Source: Thermococcus sp. (GTDB taxonomy: Archaea; Methanobacteriota_B; Thermococci; Thermococcales; Thermococcaceae). Taken from it: DNA of 53,363 bases. Both the position numbers and the translations under genes were made by a program. The stretch covers positions 1 to 53,363 of the forward strand of contig NZ_JALSLB010000038.1 in assembly GCF_026988555.1 (NCBI RefSeq), written 5' to 3'. How positions within the stretch are numbered: the stretch's first letter is position 1; every line of letters starts with the position of its first letter. Below are positions 24,742 through 53,363 of this stretch, piece by piece. Under the pieces are notes generated by a model. The model ran no database searches. It was given only the letters and a program-made list of their open reading frames with translations, and was not told the origin of the DNA.

Positions 24742-25521
24742 ATGAAAGTCGGCGTAAACTCCTTCATAATCAGGGAGATTTCAGGCCACGGCTTTTCTGT
24801 AGATGAGCTTCCGGTTGATGTAATCGAGCTGGGCTTTGATGATATGCCGGTTTTAACTCCCTCCGGAATAAACTGGGAGGTACTGCACGAGCTCCTCTCT
24901 CTCAACGTTGATTTCACGCTTCATGCTCCCTGCTCCGATGGAAAGAACATCAAACTTGATCTCGGGGTAAATTCGAGAAAAAATATCAGAATAATGGAGA
25001 ACGTTTTCAGAATAGCCCAGATCCTTGATGCTGAATACGTTGTTGTTCATGGAGGAGATATCCGGAACAACTATCACAGGGCATTTATAAACACAAAGAG
25101 GCAGCTCATGGAAATAGCAACGATAGCCGAGGAATATGAAGTGAAGCTCGTCATGGAAAATCTAACTGACAACAGGATCGGGGCTTTTCCACACGAGCTA
25201 CTCCCGTTCCTCGAAAAAAATGTTTCAGTATGCCTCGACATAGGACATGCATTTCTGACATCACTGAAATACAGGCTTGATATCGGGGAATACTTCCTGC
25301 TCGATGATATAGAGCATGTGCACCTTCACGACAACAGCGGTGCGAGAGATGAGCACAGGGCTATGGGTGAAGGCCGCATCGATTTCAACAATATTCTTCC
25401 GAAAATACTGTTTAGAAAGCCAAAGAACATCATCTGGGAGATCAGAGAGTATCAGAAAGCGGATAATATCATCAAAAGCATTCTATCAGTTAAAAGTCCC
25501 AAAATCCGGGTGGTTCGATGA
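24742..25521 (+). CDS. Sugar-phosphate isomerase/endonuclease IV-like TIM barrel in pst operon
   Basis: A 259-residue protein of the xylose-isomerase-like TIM-barrel superfamily (AP_endonuc_2). Metal-ligand strands are visible: FTLHAPCSD, YVVVHGGDI, KLVMENLTDN (Glu), SVCLDIGHAF (Asp and His), and EHVHLHDNSGARDEHRAMGEGRIDF (HLHD and the GxG). These residues suggest two or three metal ions, as in endonuclease IV or sugar isomerases. It sits between pstS and pstC and overlaps the following phosphoesterase by four bases. Release of phosphate from an organic phosphate is a reasonable guess, but the substrate is unknown. The start follows ggagggtaaaga. Confidence 0.8.
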   Translation: MKVGVNSFIIREISGHGFSVDELPVDVIELGFDDMPVLTPSGINWEVLHELLSLNVDFTLHAPCSDGKNIKLDLGVNSRKNIRIMENVFRIAQILDAEYVVVHGGDIRNNYHRAFINTKRQLMEIATIAEEYEVKLVMENLTDNRIGAFPHELLPFLEKNVSVCLDIGHAFLTSLKYRLDIGEYFLLDDIEHVHLHDNSGARDEHRAMGEGRIDFNNILPKILFRKPKNIIWEIREYQKADNIIKSILSVKSPKIRVVR

Positions 25522-26234
25522 GATTCGTACATGTAACGGATATACATACAGTATCAACGGAGAGGGAATGCCGGGAACTCTATGGTATATCACTCAATCC
25601 AAGAATGGCTCTGCTAAAGGCAGCAAAATGGATCAAAAAATTGAATCCAGAATTCGTGGTGGTCACGGGGGACATAGCGGCCATGGCAGATAAGAGCTAT
25701 GCAGACCGGGTGCTGGGCTGGTATCTCACATTCAAGGAGTTTTTTGTGGGGCCCCTTGAGAGGAGAGGGATTAAGGTGTTCCTGATTCCGGGAAATCATG
25801 ATGTCAACAAAGCTTTCGGGCTTGATGTTTATAAAGCCCTCTTCGGGCAGGACAGCTATTTCGTTGATATCAATGGAACGAGGCTCATCTTCATAACACC
25901 TAAGATGAGGACAAGAAAATGCAGACCAACAGATGAACTGATAAACTGGCTCAGGGAGATTGTAACCCCAAGATCCATCCTATTCTCCCATTATCCACTT
26001 TCCCAGTGGAAAAGAAAGGAGGAAATACTTGACATTATTGACGGAAATGTGATCGGATTCTTTTCGGGCCATCTTCACAGAAACGGCCTCAGGCTTGACA
26101 ATGGCTTTCCGGAAGTGCAGACCTCAGCGCTCTCCGGCAGCTGGTGGAATCTGTGGGGAGATGAGGGGAGCATCAGAATAGTCCGGGTGGATCAGAGAGG
26201 AATCTCATCAAAAATAGTTTCGGCAGGTGGTTGA
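25518..26234 (+). CDS. Calcineurin-like metallophosphoesterase in pst operon
   Basis: A 238-residue binuclear metal phosphoesterase. The motifs appear in order: HVTDIHT (DxH), FVVVTGDIAA (GD), LIPGNHDVN (GNHD), ILFSHYPLS (His) and GFFSGHLHRNG (GHxH). No signal peptide is present, so it acts in the cytoplasm. It overlaps the TIM-barrel gene before it (ATGA) and touches pstC after it. Together the two enzymes look like a phosphate-scavenging pair, for example acting on phosphodiesters or sugar phosphates (inference). Confidence 0.88.
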   Translation: MRFVHVTDIHTVSTERECRELYGISLNPRMALLKAAKWIKKLNPEFVVVTGDIAAMADKSYADRVLGWYLTFKEFFVGPLERRGIKVFLIPGNHDVNKAFGLDVYKALFGQDSYFVDINGTRLIFITPKMRTRKCRPTDELINWLREIVTPRSILFSHYPLSQWKRKEEILDIIDGNVIGFFSGHLHRNGLRLDNGFPEVQTSALSGSWWNLWGDEGSIRIVRVDQRGISSKIVSAGG

Positions 26235-30770: not shown

Positions 30771-31925
30771 CTAACGGAGCGGCTCCGGAATGCTCTTATC
30801 CCACTGCTCCCTCGCCAGCTCGCCGGTGTACTTGAACTTCTCGACCTTCTTCTCGGCCTCCTTGCGCTTCTTCTGGTGCTCCTCCAGGAAGTTCTGAACC
30901 TTTTCGATGAGATAGCGCTTGCACTGGCCGCAGAGGAGCTCGCCGTTTTTACATGCGTGGTAGCGTTCCATGAGCTTTTTATCATCCTTCTCGAAGAATA
31001 TCTCCATCCACTTGAAGACGACACACTTCTCGGGTTCGCCGCCCTTTTCACGCTGCTCCTTCGCCGTCGCCCTCCCACCGGTGAGGGCATACTTCCATAT
31101 CTTCTTGCCGGCCCCCTCCGGGTCGTCGGTGAGGTAGACGGCAGTTTCGGGCTTTGAGGCGCTCATCTTGCCCTCGAGGCCCATCAAACCGGGTACGAAC
31201 TTTGAGTGAATGGCAGCGGTCTTGTAGTAGCCCAAACTTTCGGCGAAGTCCCTCTGGAGCCTCCAGTACGGGTCCTGGTCTATGGCCGCGGGGATTAAAC
31301 ACCTTTTCTTCTCGAAGAAGGTGGGAGCAGCCTGAATCGCAGGGTAGAATATCATTCCAATCTTGCTCTGCTCCGTGAAGCCAAAAACAGCACGGGCCAT
31401 CGAGTAGTTTATCTTCTTCGCTATCGGTATCGCCATCTCGTAAATCTTCGTGAACTCGCTGTCCTGGAAGATGAAGGTTTTATCGGGGTCAAAGCCGACC
31501 GCTATGATGTCGAGGATGTTGTCGTAGGCCCATCTCTTCGTGTCCTCGAAGGTGAGCCTCTCCTTGAAGAGGAACTTCTCGTCGTCAGTTATCTGGACGT
31601 AGAGGTTGACGCCAAACTTCTCCTGGAGCCACCTGGTCGCGAAGAATGGAATGATGTGGCCTATGTGCATTGGGCCGCTCGGACCCCTCCCTGTGTAGAG
31701 GAAGAAGCCCTTCCCTCTCTCGTAATCCGCTAAGACCTTGTCGTAGTCCCTGTGGGAGAAGAAGAACCTCCTCCTGAAGTAGATGGGCAACTCGCTCTTG
31801 GTCAGTTCTGAGGTCTTCTCTATCAGCTCGTCCGTGAGCGGACTGGTTCCAAATTCCTTTATCAGCTTTGCGTAGTCCACTACACCTTCAACATCCCATG
31901 GGGTGACTTTAAACTCGTCGTCCAT
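30771..31925 (-). CDS. trpS: Tryptophanyl-tRNA synthetase
   Basis: A 384-residue class I synthetase that charges tRNA-Trp. The HIGH motif is PMHIGHI near residue 86, inside YTGRGPSGPMHIGHIIPFF, and the KMSKS-type loop is GKMSAS near residue 253. Length, N-terminal extension (PWDVEGVVDYAKLIKEFG) and the KMSAS form are those of the archaeal/eukaryotic TrpRS. A CxxC pair (LLCGQCKRY) is in the C-terminal domain. The start follows ggaggtgttttga. An origin-box-like palindrome lies 15-27 bases before the start codon (listed separately), and no clear TATA is near, so the transcript may have a longer leader. Confidence 0.97.
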   Translation of the reverse strand: MDDEFKVTPWDVEGVVDYAKLIKEFGTSPLTDELIEKTSELTKSELPIYFRRRFFFSHRDYDKVLADYERGKGFFLYTGRGPSGPMHIGHIIPFFATRWLQEKFGVNLYVQITDDEKFLFKERLTFEDTKRWAYDNILDIIAVGFDPDKTFIFQDSEFTKIYEMAIPIAKKINYSMARAVFGFTEQSKIGMIFYPAIQAAPTFFEKKRCLIPAAIDQDPYWRLQRDFAESLGYYKTAAIHSKFVPGLMGLEGKMSASKPETAVYLTDDPEGAGKKIWKYALTGGRATAKEQREKGGEPEKCVVFKWMEIFFEKDDKKLMERYHACKNGELLCGQCKRYLIEKVQNFLEEHQKKRKEAEKKVEKFKYTGELAREQWDKSIPEPLR

Positions 31926-31939
31926 TCAAAACACCTCCA

Positions 31940-31960
31940 TTTCCAGTGGAAACGAAGCCC
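31940..31960 (+). repeat. Isolated origin recognition box upstream of trpS
   Basis: TTTCCAGTGGAAACGAAG begins at 31940. It matches the archaeal ORB core plus its ACGAAG extension better than most copies inside oriC, yet it lies 20 kb from the origin, between the ribosome binding site and upstream region of trpS. Orc1/Cdc6 binding here is inference. Confidence 0.6.
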
Positions 31961-46140: not shown

Positions 46141-46914
46141 TCACACGAACATTGTCCTAAGCACATCGGCACAGCCACACTTCCTCTCCTCCGGAATCCC
46201 CGGGATGGCCTTCTTGAGCAACTCCTGAACCTTGTAGTTGTTCTCGGTCATAACCTTGAGAACCTCCTGTGCATCGACGGGCTTCTCGGCCCAGACGTCG
46301 TAGTCAGTGACGGTCGCTATGTTCGCGTAGCACATGCCGAGCTCTCTAGCGAGGTTTATCTCAGGCACAAGGGTCATGCCAATGATGTGGGCGTACTGGC
46401 GGAACATGAAACTCTCCGCCCTAGTTGAGAACCTCGGGCCTTCAATGCAGACGTAGGTGCCCTTCTCGTGGACGGGGAAGCCGAGCTCTTTTGCTGTTTC
46501 GTAGAATATCTTCCTCATTTCCGGGCAGAACGGGTCGGCCATCGAAACGTGGGCGACGCGCGGCCCGTTGTAGAAGGTGTAGTCCCTCTTCTTGGTGAAG
46601 TCGATGAACTGGTCTGTTATGACGATGTCCCCTGGTTTGTACTCCTCGCGGAGCGAGCCGACGGCGGTAACGCCTATGACCCTCTCAACGCCGAGCTCCT
46701 TGAGAGCCCAGATGTTTGCCCTATAAGGAACCTCGTGCGGCGGAAACTCGTGGTGCTTCCCGTGCCTTGGGATGAAGGCTACCTCAACGCCCCCGATTTC
46801 ACCTATTTCCACCGGAGCAGAGGGCCTGCCGTAGGGCGTGTGAACCTTCAGGGTTTCCTTCGGCTCGAAGACGCCGTAGACTCCAGAACCACCTATGATG
46901 CTTATCCTCGGCAT
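46141..46914 (-). CDS. mtnP: S-methyl-5'-thioadenosine phosphorylase
   Basis: A 257-residue purine-nucleoside-phosphorylase-family enzyme that splits MTA with phosphate into adenine and methylthioribose-1-phosphate. The phosphate loop is [13 protein letters not shown] with [41 protein letters not shown]. The base-binding segment is [28 protein letters not shown], followed by TVTDYDVW. The CGC pair near the C-terminus ([10 protein letters not shown]) matches the disulfide-rich hyperthermophile enzymes. The ATG at 46914 follows ggtgatgacc. It is GC-richer than the genes around it. An origin-box palindrome lies upstream of its TATA box. Confidence 0.95.
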
Positions 46915-46943
46915 GGTCATCACCGTGTTAAATGATACCCCGA

Positions 46944-46960: not shown

Positions 46961-46980
46961 TTTCCAGTGGAAATATAACT
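46961..46980 (+). repeat. Isolated origin recognition box upstream of MTA phosphorylase
   Basis: TTTCCAGTGGAAA (46961-46973) is a perfect 13-bp core palindrome, and the following TATAACTCCCC resembles the extension of the origin copy at 52176. It lies just upstream of BRE/TATA of the phosphorylase gene and 5 kb from oriC. Confidence 0.6.
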
Positions 46981-47000
46981 CCCCAGGTTAACCAATGGCA

Positions 47001-49182: not shown

Positions 49183-49566
49183 ATGGAGGCAGTTGTGCTG
49201 GCGGGAATGGCAAGGCGTATCCTCGACGAACTCATGAGGAACCCGTACAGGACCGTTGAACTCAGGGGGGCTAGGAACGTACTGGCCGTTGAGGAGGCCC
49301 TGGAAAGCACCCTGCGGCTGTTCCTGACGTACGATCCGTTCAGCGATGTGAGGGTGGGTACCGAGGGGCTTCTGGTGGAGCTGCTTGGTGCAGAAAAGCT
49401 GGAGACAAGGGTTCCATGGGAAGAGAGCGACGAGAGGGAAGTAACCGTATGCAGGGCCAAGGTAAAACTGGTCGGTCTGGGAAGGGTGGTTGAGGTCGAG
49501 AACAGAAGAGGGGTGATGATCGTCCACATCCGTGAGCCAATACCGCAGGAAATGGGGATGGGCTAA
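49183..49566 (+). CDS. Small conserved protein downstream of PAC2 homologue
   Basis: A 127-residue soluble protein: EAVVLAGMARRILDELMRNPYRTVELRGARNVLAVEEALESTLRLFLTYDPFSD, then VRVGTEGLLVELLGAEKLETRVPWEE and EVTVCRAKVKLVGLGRVVEVENRRGVMIVHIREP. It looks like a helical front and a strand-rich end. I do not recognise the family. The ATG at 49183 follows ggtgatgggg; an ATG two codons earlier overlaps that site. It is cotranscribed with the PAC2 gene and overlaps the convergent nucS by four bases. Confidence 0.7.
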   Translation: MEAVVLAGMARRILDELMRNPYRTVELRGARNVLAVEEALESTLRLFLTYDPFSDVRVGTEGLLVELLGAEKLETRVPWEESDEREVTVCRAKVKLVGLGRVVEVENRRGVMIVHIREPIPQEMGMG

Positions 49567-50321
49567 AGGAGTGTTGTCTGTCTGCCCTTTCCAGCACCCG
49601 TGCGCCGTGGGGGTTCAAGCTTCCGGAACTCCAGCCCCTCTTTCTCAAGGAGGCGTCTGGCCCCGGAGGTTAAGGATGGAGCAACCAGAATGCCCCTAAC
49701 GTTTCCCCCATTCTCTTCCACCAACGTTTCGACGTAGCGCTTCAGCTGACTTACGGCATGAAGCTCGGCCCTCCTGCGCTTCAGTTCGAGCACAACGAGG
49801 TTGTCCCGCGAGTCCTTCCCGAGTATATCAACTATGCCGTGCCGTATCTGTTTCTCACGGAACAGAGGTCTAAACCCGGGTTCTATCAGTTCCGGACTTC
49901 CAAATATCATCTCGGCCATCTCGGATTCACTCCCGGTAAGAGAAAGCTCCTCGTAATCCTCTGCCCGAAACGCGGAGACCATATACACGTCTTCAAGTTC
50001 AACTTCCAGGATTTCACGCGGTTTTTTACGTACAGAAACCAGAATGGGGTCCTCCCGGAGTTCAAGACGGACCCGACTTCCAGGCGGTTGCCAGTTCACG
50101 GGTTCCCGCTTCTTGGCCTGATGGATGAGAAACGAACCGTCCGGCTTTATAAGTATCACCCGGTCCCCCGAGCCAAGTTCACTCTTTGCTCGACCATCGT
50201 AGTGCACCCTGCAGCGGGCGAAGATCGTGAGCACATCCCCCTCCAAAAGGGCCGAGTCCACGATGTTCACGAGTTCTTCTGTGGAAGGGTTTGTTGAAAC
50301 CAGGACTTTTTCCCCGGACAT
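49563..50321 (-). CDS. nucS: Mismatch-specific endonuclease NucS/EndoMS
   Basis: A 252-residue nuclease that recognises mismatched DNA and cuts both strands. The N-terminal beta-barrel (LTIFARCRVHYDGRAKSELGSGDRVILIKPDGSFLIHQ) binds DNA. The C-terminal RecB-like domain has RHGIVDILGKDSRDNLVVLELKRRRAELHAVSQLKRYVE, with active-site Asp near 165, Glu and Lys in ELKRR and Gln in QLKRY. The C-terminal tail may bind PCNA, though no exact PIP box is seen. It lies 30 bases after radA on the same strand, so mismatch cutting and recombinational repair genes share a transcript. Confidence 0.96.
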   Translation of the reverse strand: MSGEKVLVSTNPSTEELVNIVDSALLEGDVLTIFARCRVHYDGRAKSELGSGDRVILIKPDGSFLIHQAKKREPVNWQPPGSRVRLELREDPILVSVRKKPREILEVELEDVYMVSAFRAEDYEELSLTGSESEMAEMIFGSPELIEPGFRPLFREKQIRHGIVDILGKDSRDNLVVLELKRRRAELHAVSQLKRYVETLVEENGGNVRGILVAPSLTSGARRLLEKEGLEFRKLEPPRRTGAGKGRQTTLL

Positions 50322-50351: not shown

Positions 50352-51416
50352 TTAATCCTCTGCCCCCTTCTCCGTGATCCGGAATATCGCCTCGCCTTCG
50401 GGAAGATGGGGGCTGTCTATGAGCCTGGCCACGCGCTTGCCGGCCTTGCCTTTCCTCAGGTAAATCCTAAGCGTCGCGCTGTGGGCCAGGATGTGGCCGC
50501 CTACTGGCCTCGTCGGGTCGCCGAAGAAGGCATCGGGCTTGGCCTGAACCTGGTTTGTGACGAAGACCGCTATATCGTAGAGGTCCGCTATCCTGTGCAG
50601 GTCCGAGAGGTGTTTGGCCAGCTTCTGCTGCCGCTCTGCAAGGGTTCCCCTGCCGACATACTCGCTCCTGAAGTGGGCCATGAGAGAATCCACTATTAGG
50701 AGTTTAACCGGCCTATCGGTCTCGGCCTTCTCTTTGATTATCTCCTCAGCCCTCTCGATGAGGAGCATCTGGTGGTTGCTGTTGAAGGCTCTGGCAACGT
50801 AGATGTTCTTGAGCACCTCGTCCGGGTCGAGACCACGGTTCTCGGCGATCTGTCTTATTCTTTCGGGTCGGAAGGTGTTTTCGGTGTCTATCCAAACGAC
50901 AGAGCCGTGAAGACCACCTTCCTCGTGCGGGAGCTGAACCATCACCGCCAGGGTATGAGCGAGCTGAGTCTTTCCGGAGCCGAACTCTCCGAATACCTCC
51001 GTTATGGCCTGGGTCTCGACTCCGCCGCCGATGAGTTTGTCAAGGCTCTTGCTTCCTGTGGAGACCTTGCCTATGATGCTCCGCTTTGCCATGTACTCAT
51101 CGGCACGCATGAATGTCCCGATGTTTGCCGCTTCCCTCGCGGCTTGGATTATCTTGAGGGCGGCACCCTCACTTATGCCGGCTATCTCCTTGAGCTCCAT
51201 TGGGGAGGCAACTGCAATGGCCTCGATGCTATCGTAGCCAGCATCCCGAAGTTTCTCGGCGGTGGCGGGGCCCACCCCAGGCAGGTCCTCAAGGTTTTTA
51301 GCGGTGGAGGCCGCTTTACTCTTAGTTGAACTGGAGGAGGTCTCTTCCACAACATCGAGCTCTTCAAATTCATCAAGCTCTTTTATTTCATCTTTGGCAC
51401 TCTTTTTCTTAGCCAT
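50352..51416 (-). CDS. radA: DNA repair and recombination protein RadA
   Basis: A 354-residue archaeal RecA/Rad51 recombinase that coats single-stranded DNA and drives strand exchange. The N-terminal tail is acidic with a Ser-rich linker. A helix-hairpin-helix domain follows ([30 protein letters not shown]). The core has Walker [18 protein letters not shown] near residue 146, Walker [18 protein letters not shown], and loops with [26 protein letters not shown]. No intein is present, unlike some Thermococcales radA genes. The start follows ggtgggtgagacttc. It lies beside oriC, as I recall for other Thermococcus and Pyrococcus genomes. Confidence 0.97.
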
Positions 51417-51465
51417 GAAGTCTCACCCACCGAAACTACCTTTGGTGGGGGTAAAGATTGGAAGG

Positions 51466-51473
51466 TTATATAC
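51466..51473. promoter_or_regulatory. radA promoter TATA box, nearly symmetric
   Basis: On the minus strand gtatataacc lies about 50 bases before the radA start and is its likely TATA. Because the box is nearly symmetric it could also serve the + strand and start a transcript near 51495, at the beginning of the GC-rich block. Confidence 0.55.
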
Positions 51474-51489
51474 TTTTCTTTTTATAGGA

Positions 51490-51812
51490 CCCGACGGGGG
51501 AGAAGCGGCACGCGAACCAATCACCACAACACGAGCTGCAGGTTCCCAGTGGTGGTGCTGAGGAAGAGAGAATGCCTGTTTCAGGGGAAAAGAACAGCAT
51601 AGGAACTCGTTTCCCAGAAAAAGCCGAGGATTTTATCACTATCAGCCCAGCACCATGGGGTGCTCCCATCGAGGTCCGGGCTGAGCACGGGGCATCCGTG
51701 TAGTAACCGAGCAGGAAAGGGTCTGTCCAGGTTGAAGCTTCCTAAGAACGTCAAGGTACGTGAGCCCCAGGGAGCAACGGGATCAAGGTGTTCAATACGG
51801 GCCGGCTCTTAA
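51490..51812. ncRNA. Candidate structured RNA or GC-rich block between radA and oriC
   Basis: A GC-rich island in an otherwise AT-rich gap, with several strong hairpins and no supported protein. TCAGCCC (51643-51649) pairs perfectly with GGGCTGA (51679-51685) and encloses the stem AGCACC-ATGG-GGTGCT (51650-51665) plus a 13-base one-sided bulge. CACGG-GGCAT-CCGTG (51687-51701) follows. GAGCC (51762) pairs with GGCTC (51804). A TATA-like box at 51466-51473 would start a + transcript near 51495. I found no match to RNase P, SRP or tRNA signature sequences. The strand is unproven. Confidence 0.4.
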
Positions 51813-51850
51813 AAATGCATCACAACGTGTCCAGTGTGCAACGTGAATGG

Positions 51851-51870
51851 TTCCAGTGGAAGGAAAGGTC
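51851..51870 (+). repeat. Origin recognition box 1
   Basis: TTCCAGTGGAAGGAAAGG in + orientation. It faces box 2, 58 bases away, as an inverted pair on one side of the AT-rich element. Confidence 0.7.
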
Positions 51871-51900
51871 CTTTTCGATGGTCGTCTCATATGGGCCCCA

Positions 51901-51920
51901 GAGTTTCATTTCCACTGGAA
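51901..51920 (-). repeat. Origin recognition box 2
   Basis: On the minus strand TTCCAGTGGAAATGAAACTC, an intact core plus the extension shared with box 3. Opposite orientation to box 1. Confidence 0.75.
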
Positions 51921-52071
51921 CTGGGGTTTGGAGAATGGACGGTTTCACAACGGCGAAAAATGTAAATAAGGGATTTATATCCAAAGCTACCAACGTCAAC
52001 CAGTATAGTGTTCATAATATCACCTTAAAATCGCTGAAAATTAGTTAACTTAAAATAAAAAATCGTATATT

Positions 52072-52088
52072 TATGAACATTGTTCATA
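52072..52088. repeat. Palindrome inside the AT-rich origin element
   Basis: TATGAAC and GTTCATA around ATT, perfect arms of seven. It sits in the most AT-rich part of oriC, directly before a strong TATA-like run (aatatataaat, 52091-52101). It may be a protein site or part of the unwinding element. Confidence 0.5.
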
Positions 52089-52175
52089 GGAATATATAAA
52101 TATCATCAGTTCTAGAAAGTTGGGATAGCTTAATTAGGAAGAAAACGTAGTTTAAAGTAGCTTTACAAAGCCTGC

Positions 52176-52195
52176 CTCCACAGGAAATGAAACTC
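52176..52195 (+). repeat. Origin recognition box 3
   Basis: CTCCACAGGAAATGAAACTC. The core is degenerate but the GGAAATGAAACTC extension equals that of box 2, which supports common origin. Confidence 0.6.
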
Positions 52196-52311
52196 CCTGG
52201 GATTACAGATGTGCTTTTATATTTAAAATCCTTAAGCGGTTTTGTTTTCTCATATTGTACTTAAATAGGCTTCAGTGTATATTCTATGATGCACTTTTAT
52301 AATCATTCTTC

Positions 52312-52331
52312 TTTCAGTGGAAGTCTCATCG
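52312..52331 (+). repeat. Origin recognition box 4
   Basis: TTTCAGTGGAAGTCTCATCG: right half of the core intact (CAGTGGAA), one base missing on the left. Confidence 0.5.
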
Positions 52332-52395
52332 GCCCCCACCCGATCTTTACACATGAAAACTTTCAATATCCATTTGCGGTCAGTATCGAGTGTTG

Positions 52396-52415
52396 TTTCC
52401 CCTGGAAACGATACG
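52396..52415 (+). repeat. Origin recognition box 5
   Basis: TTTCCCCTGGAAACGATACG: core with two central changes and the AACGA extension typical of full-length boxes. Confidence 0.6.
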
Positions 52416-52448
52416 GTTATTAACTCCTGAGGCTATTTCGCCTGGTGG

Positions 52449-52460
52449 TTCCAGTGGAGG
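52449..52460 (+). repeat. Origin recognition box 6, over a start codon
   Basis: TTCCAGTGGAGG. It covers the GTG start of the following gene, so origin binding there could block its translation start region or transcription. Confidence 0.55.
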
Positions 52461-53077
52461 ATATTGAGGAGACCATACTGAGGTGGCTCAGGGAGGGTGA
52501 GGATAGTGCTAAAGACATCGTTGACCTCCCCTGGGTCGTGAACCCGGTTCGTGATCATGTGTACCTGGCGGAACACCCTCGACTGCCGTTTACTCTTCTG
52601 CTGGTTTTTTCCGATGAGTTCGTTCAGCTGGTGGTTCCACTTGGACTGGAGACGCTGTCAATGAACACTGAGGACCGGCTTAGGATTTACCATGCTCTCC
52701 TAAAGCTCAACGACGGCATCAACCTGCTCAAGTACACCCTCTCAAGCATGAACGATGAGGTCACCCTCCGGGTGGATCTTGATAAGAAAACCCTCGGTAA
52801 ATCCGAGTTCAATGACGCGCTCACCGTTCTCTTGGTGGGTCTTCAGGCCGCGGTCACCAATCTCGGGCTTGAGGAAGAATTTTCCAACGAGATCTTCGAA
52901 CGCCTCGTTGGTATGGTTGTCTCAAGGCTTGAGAAGGGTGCCACAAAGGAGGAACTCATGCAGTTTCTGGTTCAGAAGGTCGGGATGCCTGGGAAGGACT
53001 CCAGAGAACTGCTTGCTATGGTCTTGAAAGCGCATAAGGAAGCCTCCTCCAGGACTCAGGATGTTGGGTATTTCTGA
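52454..53077 (+). CDS. YbjN/type-III-chaperone-like fold protein in origin region
   Basis: A 207-residue acidic protein. The N-terminal part (EETILRWLREGEDSAKDIVDLPW) is followed by a strand-turn-strand body (LPFTLLLVFSDEFVQLVVPLGLETLS), a helix (TEDRLRIYHALLKLNDGINLLKYTLSS) and EVTLRVDLDKKTLGKSEFNDALTVLLVGLQAAV. This is the pattern of the YbjN/CesT chaperone-like fold. The C-terminus is helical (EELMQFLVQKVGMPGKDSRELLAMVLK). Function is unknown. The likely start is the GTG at 52454, five bases after ggtgg; another in-frame GTG lies at 52445. It stands alone between origin boxes, with a T-rich stop signal (ttcttttt) after it. Confidence 0.75.
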   Translation: MEDIEETILRWLREGEDSAKDIVDLPWVVNPVRDHVYLAEHPRLPFTLLLVFSDEFVQLVVPLGLETLSMNTEDRLRIYHALLKLNDGINLLKYTLSSMNDEVTLRVDLDKKTLGKSEFNDALTVLLVGLQAAVTNLGLEEEFSNEIFERLVGMVVSRLEKGATKEELMQFLVQKVGMPGKDSRELLAMVLKAHKEASSRTQDVGYF

Positions 53078-53150
53078 CCATCCTGTTCGTCTCGGACCCT
53101 TCTTTTTACATTCTCCTGTCCAGCAAGGCATATAAACCCCTGACTGCTAC

Positions 53151-53324
53151 TTATCCCTGCTTCCACTGTATCCAGTGCGTCCTGTGGAGTGTGTGTTTGA
53201 TATCCAACTTGTTTAAAAATAAATTGCCATATATCCCAAATAATATTAAAAATATGGAAAAAAAAGAGGATGAATTTAATGCTTCATGTCAAATAAACAT
53301 GGCTGAGTATGATTTCCAGTGGAG
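53151..53324. other. Second cluster of origin boxes and AT-rich run upstream of the last gene
   Basis: On the minus strand TACAGTGGAAGCAGGGATAA (53151-53170) and on the plus strand TTTCCAGTGGAG (53313-53324) are origin-box copies. They flank a very AT-rich run at about 53210-53290. This may be a second part of oriC or an operator through which Orc1/Cdc6 controls its own gene; a TATA-like gaatttaat lies at about 53271-53279. Confidence 0.6.
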
Positions 53325-53335
53325 TGGTGGTGAGC

Positions 53336-53363
53336 ATGGATGATACTTACCTGGGTTCGGTGT
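53336..53363 (+). CDS. cdc6: Start of probable orc1/cdc6, cut by window edge
   Basis: Only nine codons are visible (MDDTYLGSV), after an excellent site ggtggtgagc. The sequence alone identifies nothing. The position does: origin boxes immediately upstream, radA and nucS on the other side of oriC, and the recalled order in Thermococcus and Pyrococcus, where the origin initiator gene orc1/cdc6 follows. Confidence rests on context only. Confidence 0.5.

Follow-up and report, generated by a model that had tools for sequence, protein, structure and literature searches.

We have analysed a window of 53,363 bp, the complete sequence of C38, one of the 68 contigs of a Thermococcus draft genome of 1.97 Mb. 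Its right end carries nucS and radA, a gap rich in origin recognition boxes (ORBs), a 210-aa ORF and the beginning of orc1/cdc6 (Table 1). A preliminary description, made from the sequence alone, had placed the chromosomal origin (oriC) between radA and the gene that follows, partly from the nucS-radA context, and both of these genes were confirmed by family models. An orc1/cdc6 gene does begin at 53336, where the description had looked for one, and it is complete on contig C53, which shares the window's final 225 bases save for a single difference, an A in a poly-A run. The encoded Orc1 is complete (415 aa; TIGR02928 match of 496 bits, above the cut-off), and this genome has one full Orc1. 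On C53, orc1 is followed by the genes for the PolD small subunit (DP1) and the PolD large subunit (DP2), the latter of which looks intein-bearing. The 210-aa ORF separates orc1 from oriC, so that orc1 is not the next gene; searches of Pfam and NCBIfam with this ORF gave zero matches. At some distance, an ORF at 25518-26234 is metallophosphatase-like and matches an anti-phage protein model weakly (E 3e-5), far under the cut-off.

Table 1. Features of the predicted oriC locus, its neighbouring genes and off-origin ORBs. Positions are those of the window except where a contig is named.
Feature	Position	Strand	Remarks
ORB without G-string, TTCCAGTGGAAACGAAGCCC	31941-31960	+	leader of trpS (30771-31925, minus strand)
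ORB without G-string, TTCCAGTGGAAATATAACTC	46962-46981	+	39 bp upstream of mtaP (46141-46923, minus strand)
nucS	49563-50321	-	NF003270
radA	50352-51416	-	TIGR02236
Left outer mini-ORB, TTCCAGTGGAAG	51851-51862	+	58 bp from left ORB; spacing common to most relatives
Left full ORB, TTCCAGTGGAAATGAAACTC	51901-51920; 51890-51920 with G-string	-	core TTCCAGTGGAAA, tail TGAAACTC, then TGGGG
AT-rich region, predicted to unwind	51921-52175	none	255 bp between full ORBs, 68% AT
Non-ORB element	52071-52102	+	palindrome TATGAACATTGTTCATA then TATAAATA, inside AT-rich region
Right full ORB, CTCCACAGGAAATGAAACTC	52176-52195; 52176-52203 with G-string	+	G-string GGG only
Degenerate mini-ORB, TTTCAGTGGAAG	52312-52323	+	conserved in sister species L032
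Degenerate ORB, TTCCAGGGGAAACAACACTC	52388-52407	-	core block identical in sister species L032
210-aa ORF between oriC and orc1	52445-53077	+	homologues 51-62% identical beside oriC in most relatives
Mini-ORB, TTCCAGTGGAGG	52449-52460	+	within very start of 210-aa ORF
Weak box, TCCTGTGGAGTG	near 53180		upstream of orc1
ORB without G-string	53305-53324	-	orc1 leader, 12 bp before start codon; plus-strand reading TTCCAGTGGAGT at 53314
orc1/cdc6, first 28 bases	53336-53363	+	complete gene on C53 (L028:197-1444)
Full ORB upstream of tpiA	C45:7516 (L343:1501-1520)		3' end of phosphopantetheine adenylyltransferase-like gene

The DNA between radA and oriC was compared with that of L032, a relative whose Orc1 is 100% identical in the best segment. 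L032 was rejected as a member of the same species, since a DNA identity of 89-91% makes it a sister species. It carries an intact channel-like gene of 341 aa (L032:1319-2344, minus strand), of which positions 51470-51810 of the window appear to hold a remnant (potassium-channel/TrkA-N-like by eye), and about 829 bp have been lost between radA and oriC in this genome. The GC-rich segment at 51.5-51.8 kb was also considered as a structured RNA gene; this was rejected on the same comparison, which identifies it as the decayed channel gene, and a search of the segment against Rfam gave zero matches up to an E value of 1.

All eight boxes of the preliminary description, six in the gap and two before the last start codon, were located. 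The two full ORBs match TTCCASTGGAAAYGAAACTC with no mismatches (51901-51920) and two mismatches (52176-52195), respectively, and they have opposite orientations, as described, with their GAAACTC ends pointing outward. This is the sole inverted ORB pair detected in this genome. The GGAAATGAAACTC extension, by which the description had recognised some of the boxes, is genuine ORB sequence. A reading of the right ORB as a decayed box was rejected, CCACAGG being the usual form of the core in the clade. When two mismatches are tolerated, 51417-52460 has six core-like sites, whereas dinucleotide shuffles average 0.17 (n = 500; largest 2), and three sites have at most one mismatch, against 0.014 in the shuffles. 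The AT content of the window peaks between the full ORBs, whether measured over 100 bp or 150 bp, with 80% AT at 52004-52103 and 32% GC across 51900-52099, which bears out an AT-rich core at about 52.0-52.1 kb. In an alignment of the Thermococcaceae loci compared below, TATGAACATTGTTCAT ... TATAAATA is conserved inside the AT-rich region, and the element formed by the palindrome and TATAAATA is kept in most of the genus Thermococcus and in the T. barophilus group. As a separate observation, a second protein that binds the origin may have its site at the palindrome TATGAACATTGTTCATA together with TATAAATA.

The neighbourhood of orc1 was compared in 61 Thermococcaceae genomes. An inverted ORB pair lies upstream of orc1 in 53 of the 61 loci, with a gap of 250-271 bp that is 60-72% AT, and the left-ORB consensus across the aligned loci is the full box TTCCAGTGGAAATGAAACTCTGGGGGG. 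We take G022 to be T. kodakarensis and G075 to be T. barophilus; a genome among the 53 with the pair is presumably that of P. abyssi. The position of orc1 is 1,712,158 in G022 and 1,671,692 in G075. Published marker-frequency data place the peaks of these species at nearly identical coordinates, 1,712,000 in T. kodakarensis and 1,671,000 in T. barophilus (PMC11005403), which connects this locus with origins of demonstrated activity. 2D gels and RIP mapping have located the origin of P. abyssi (PMC4010727).

Among the closest parallels, the oriC of T. kodakarensis KOD1, upstream of TK1901 (cdc6), resembles that of the window in its position on the radA side, its 255-bp ORB gap, its AT-rich core, the 58-bp mini-ORB spacing and the orc1-PolD operon (PMC5663688). 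It differs in that its two ORBs precede the aligned start of orc1 by 784 and 509 bp and that a homologue of the 210-aa ORF was not detected, whereas the window has that ORF in between, the CCACAGG variant in its right ORB and shorter G-strings. T. barophilus MP shares the succession of an ORB pair (253-bp gap), an intervening ORF and then orc1, while P. abyssi shares an ORB pair (256-bp gap), orc1 and PolD genes, and ORBs in the PolD small-subunit gene. In seven genomes of one genus (g4), zero ORB pairs were found upstream of orc1. In the three g4 genomes in which the stretch spans the radA side (G065, G067 and G069; loci L369, L370 and L373), the pair adjoins radA and the 210-aa ORF, with a gap of 251-253 bp, and lies hundreds of kilobases from orc1-PolD. 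The initiator gene is thus unlinked from its origin in these genomes, and the ORB pair is separable from orc1.

With the inverted pair in place, orc1 at 53336 and the same pair in 53 of the 61 loci, we consider it very probable that the oriC of this Thermococcus species lies at 51.85-52.46 kb, in agreement with the preliminary description. The anatomy of this oriC, its conservation in the 53 loci and the adjoining initiator gene are directly visible in this species, and the locus is a further case of a known origin type that has been mapped experimentally in relatives. The winged helix of Orc1 binds the ORB core, and Matsunaga (2007), as related in citing works, reportedly obtained Orc1 footprints on the boxes of the Pyrococcus oriC. 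The AAA+ domain of Orc1 binds the G-string (PMC3936714). Judging from relatives, Orc1 binding, melting and firing would also be expected at the predicted oriC. The product of the gene that begins at 53336 would occupy both inverted full ORBs, with its winged helix contacting the core and the GAAACTC tail and its AAA+ domain the G-string, and the mini-ORBs would assist it there. Orc1 on the outward-facing ORBs would open the AT-rich stretch between the pair, where MCM would be loaded for bidirectional replication. The leader of orc1 has an ORB as well, a candidate autoregulatory site through which Orc1 may gauge its own abundance. The base-level map of this oriC can serve as a guide for footprinting.

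The G-strings of the window, with four G on the left and three on the right, are among the shortest of the 53 loci, in which the medians are six and five. A G-string of at least five is found on the left in 49 of the 53 loci (5-7 G) and on the right in 47, and the short left variant is common to the window and sister species L032. Altering either G-string abolishes the function of oriC1 in Haloarcula hispanica (PMC3936714). Since both G-strings are short, this origin may be weak, and this would agree with the finding that two relatives can do without oriC: T. kodakarensis grows without cdc6 and oriC and lacks a log-phase peak (PMC5663688), and T. barophilus continues to grow when its oriC, which is used mainly in stationary phase, is deleted (PMC11005403). 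By analogy, the origin described here is probably dispensable as well and shares the work with RadA-dependent initiation. The viability of T. kodakarensis, the shortened G-strings and the requirement for both G-strings in H. hispanica could also be taken to mean that the locus is an inherited and largely silent origin, at which the boxes persist and hold Orc1 or regulate orc1 while replication depends mostly on RadA-dependent recombination. We regard this as unlikely, given that a stationary-phase peak at oriC is present in all three Thermococcales tested (PMC11005403) and that the core, tail, AT-rich element and spacing are kept both here and in the sister species. Strand composition, sampled at 20 stretches of the complete relative G062, is weak evidence on the oriC reading. 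GC skew is unchanged across the locus (p 0.91) and the GGGT cumulative minimum is displaced by about 60-180 kb to the left of it, both of which count against that reading, while the GGGT strand bias does change, from 0.48 on the left to 0.55 on the right (p 0.007).

It is very hard to credit that some ordinary transcription factor uses the boxes as operators for the neighbouring genes, with no role in replication. In favour of this are a core that is almost a palindrome and the presence of closely similar boxes at mtaP, trpS and malic enzyme, in either the promoter or the leader. Against it, the motif is asymmetric, with GAAACTC on one side only, the ORB G-string is present at the origin, the same pair occurs at the mapped Pyrococcus abyssi origin, and exact cores cluster round oriC in all genomes examined.

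As an oriC, the locus is of a known kind; its interest lies mainly in the boxes found off the origin and in the way that the G-string divides the two sets. The exact 12-mer core occurs in 3-12 copies per genome, mostly within about 30 kb of oriC. Two outlying boxes, both of them intact, lie in the window: the mtaP ORB abuts the BRE/TATA of that gene (GGCAACCCTTATAT), and the trpS ORB adjoins the trpS Shine-Dalgarno sequence, GGAGGTG. Within the genus Thermococcus, 40 of 48 genomes have the exact core before mtaP, and for trpS the figure is 41 of 49. At the mtaP site, the core columns have a mean of 1.94 bits vs 0.44 for the upstream flank, which is a clear footprint; that at trpS is less telling, since the entire trpS leader is conserved. 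Where trpS lies at least 70 kb from oriC (70-134 kb), the box is kept in six of eight genomes and lost in two, and this loss (2/8, vs 0/41 other genomes) has a P of 0.02, uncorrected for shared ancestry. Both the mtaP and the trpS ORBs are absent from the T. barophilus group and Pyrococcus. The former thus differs from the window at both genes, as does P. abyssi, in which mtaP directly borders the origin without a promoter ORB and trpS lies elsewhere, also without one. The full box upstream of tpiA occurs in G012, G016, G025, G030 and G032 as well, and about a dozen genomes, including T. kodakarensis, have a full box near the TATA-like box of malic enzyme. ORB-like sites inside radA were not counted; they encode a conserved ISTG, written TCCACTGGA in 35 of 42 cases, and the protein is conserved too, despite the biased codon choice.

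A further ORB cluster lies on C53 (L028:1444-2150), in the linker-coding part of the gene for the PolD small subunit (DP1). Such repeats have been reported before (Berthon et al. 2008, PMC2643942), and we therefore rejected the idea that they are new; our analysis adds 60 genomes and a codon test to that report. Of 115 STG triplets, 111 are encoded by TCC-ACT-GGA, vs about 1% expected from codon use, which shows that the ORBs in the PolD gene are kept at the DNA level. In Haloarcula, an ORB cluster downstream of an origin has been proposed to repress it (PMC4010727), and this is a possible model for the PolD cluster.

The two sets of boxes were compared by the run of G in the 12 bases beyond the 20-mer box, with a threshold of at least five. 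Such a run accompanies 96 of 106 origin ORBs vs 3 of 240 off-origin ORBs (trpS, 0/48; mtaP, 0/43; orc1 leader, 0/31; PolD gene, 3/118); the rows are related genomes, so that the counts overstate independence, yet the split is nearly complete. We propose that an origin ORB be distinguished by its core, its GAAACTC tail and a G-run of at least five, but the two oriC ORBs of the window fall short of this, with four and three. The off-origin ORBs are putative Orc1 sites that would regulate genes or titrate the initiator. Orc1, rather than another dyad-binding factor, is suggested as the ligand by the asymmetric tail that they have in common with the origin box. Gene regulation is suggested by the placement of off-origin boxes at BRE/TATA and ribosome-binding sites, and the main alternative to it is Orc1 titration.

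Our hypothesis, which we hold tentatively and at slightly less than even confidence, is that in Thermococcus Orc1, the single replication initiator, also acts at the off-origin ORBs in regulation or titration (compare bacterial DnaA), and that possession of a G-string distinguishes the sites that fire from those that are bound without firing. The sites concerned are those at mtaP, trpS, tpiA, malic enzyme, the orc1 leader and the PolD small-subunit gene. Sulfolobus Orc1-2 is a precedent for an Orc1-family protein active at promoters (PMC9738581), as the off-origin ORBs suggest here, but it is a non-initiator paralogue, whereas the single full Orc1 of this genome would need to fill both roles. 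A literature search, which did not extend to the P. abyssi Orc1 ChIP-chip study, turned up no description of ORBs in Thermococcus promoters, and this is weak evidence of novelty. If the hypothesis is true, the conserved boxes that lack a G-string, in the PolD gene and at promoters of metabolic genes, would give Orc1 a second job, which bears on why Thermococcus retains Orc1 and oriC though both can be deleted.

A minor observation concerns the trpS leader itself. The segment 31925-32040 (minus strand) is conserved family-wide and allows a reading as a short ORF (GTG ATT GCT TTT GGC ...) that overlaps the trpS start; it could be a leader peptide or an RNA element.
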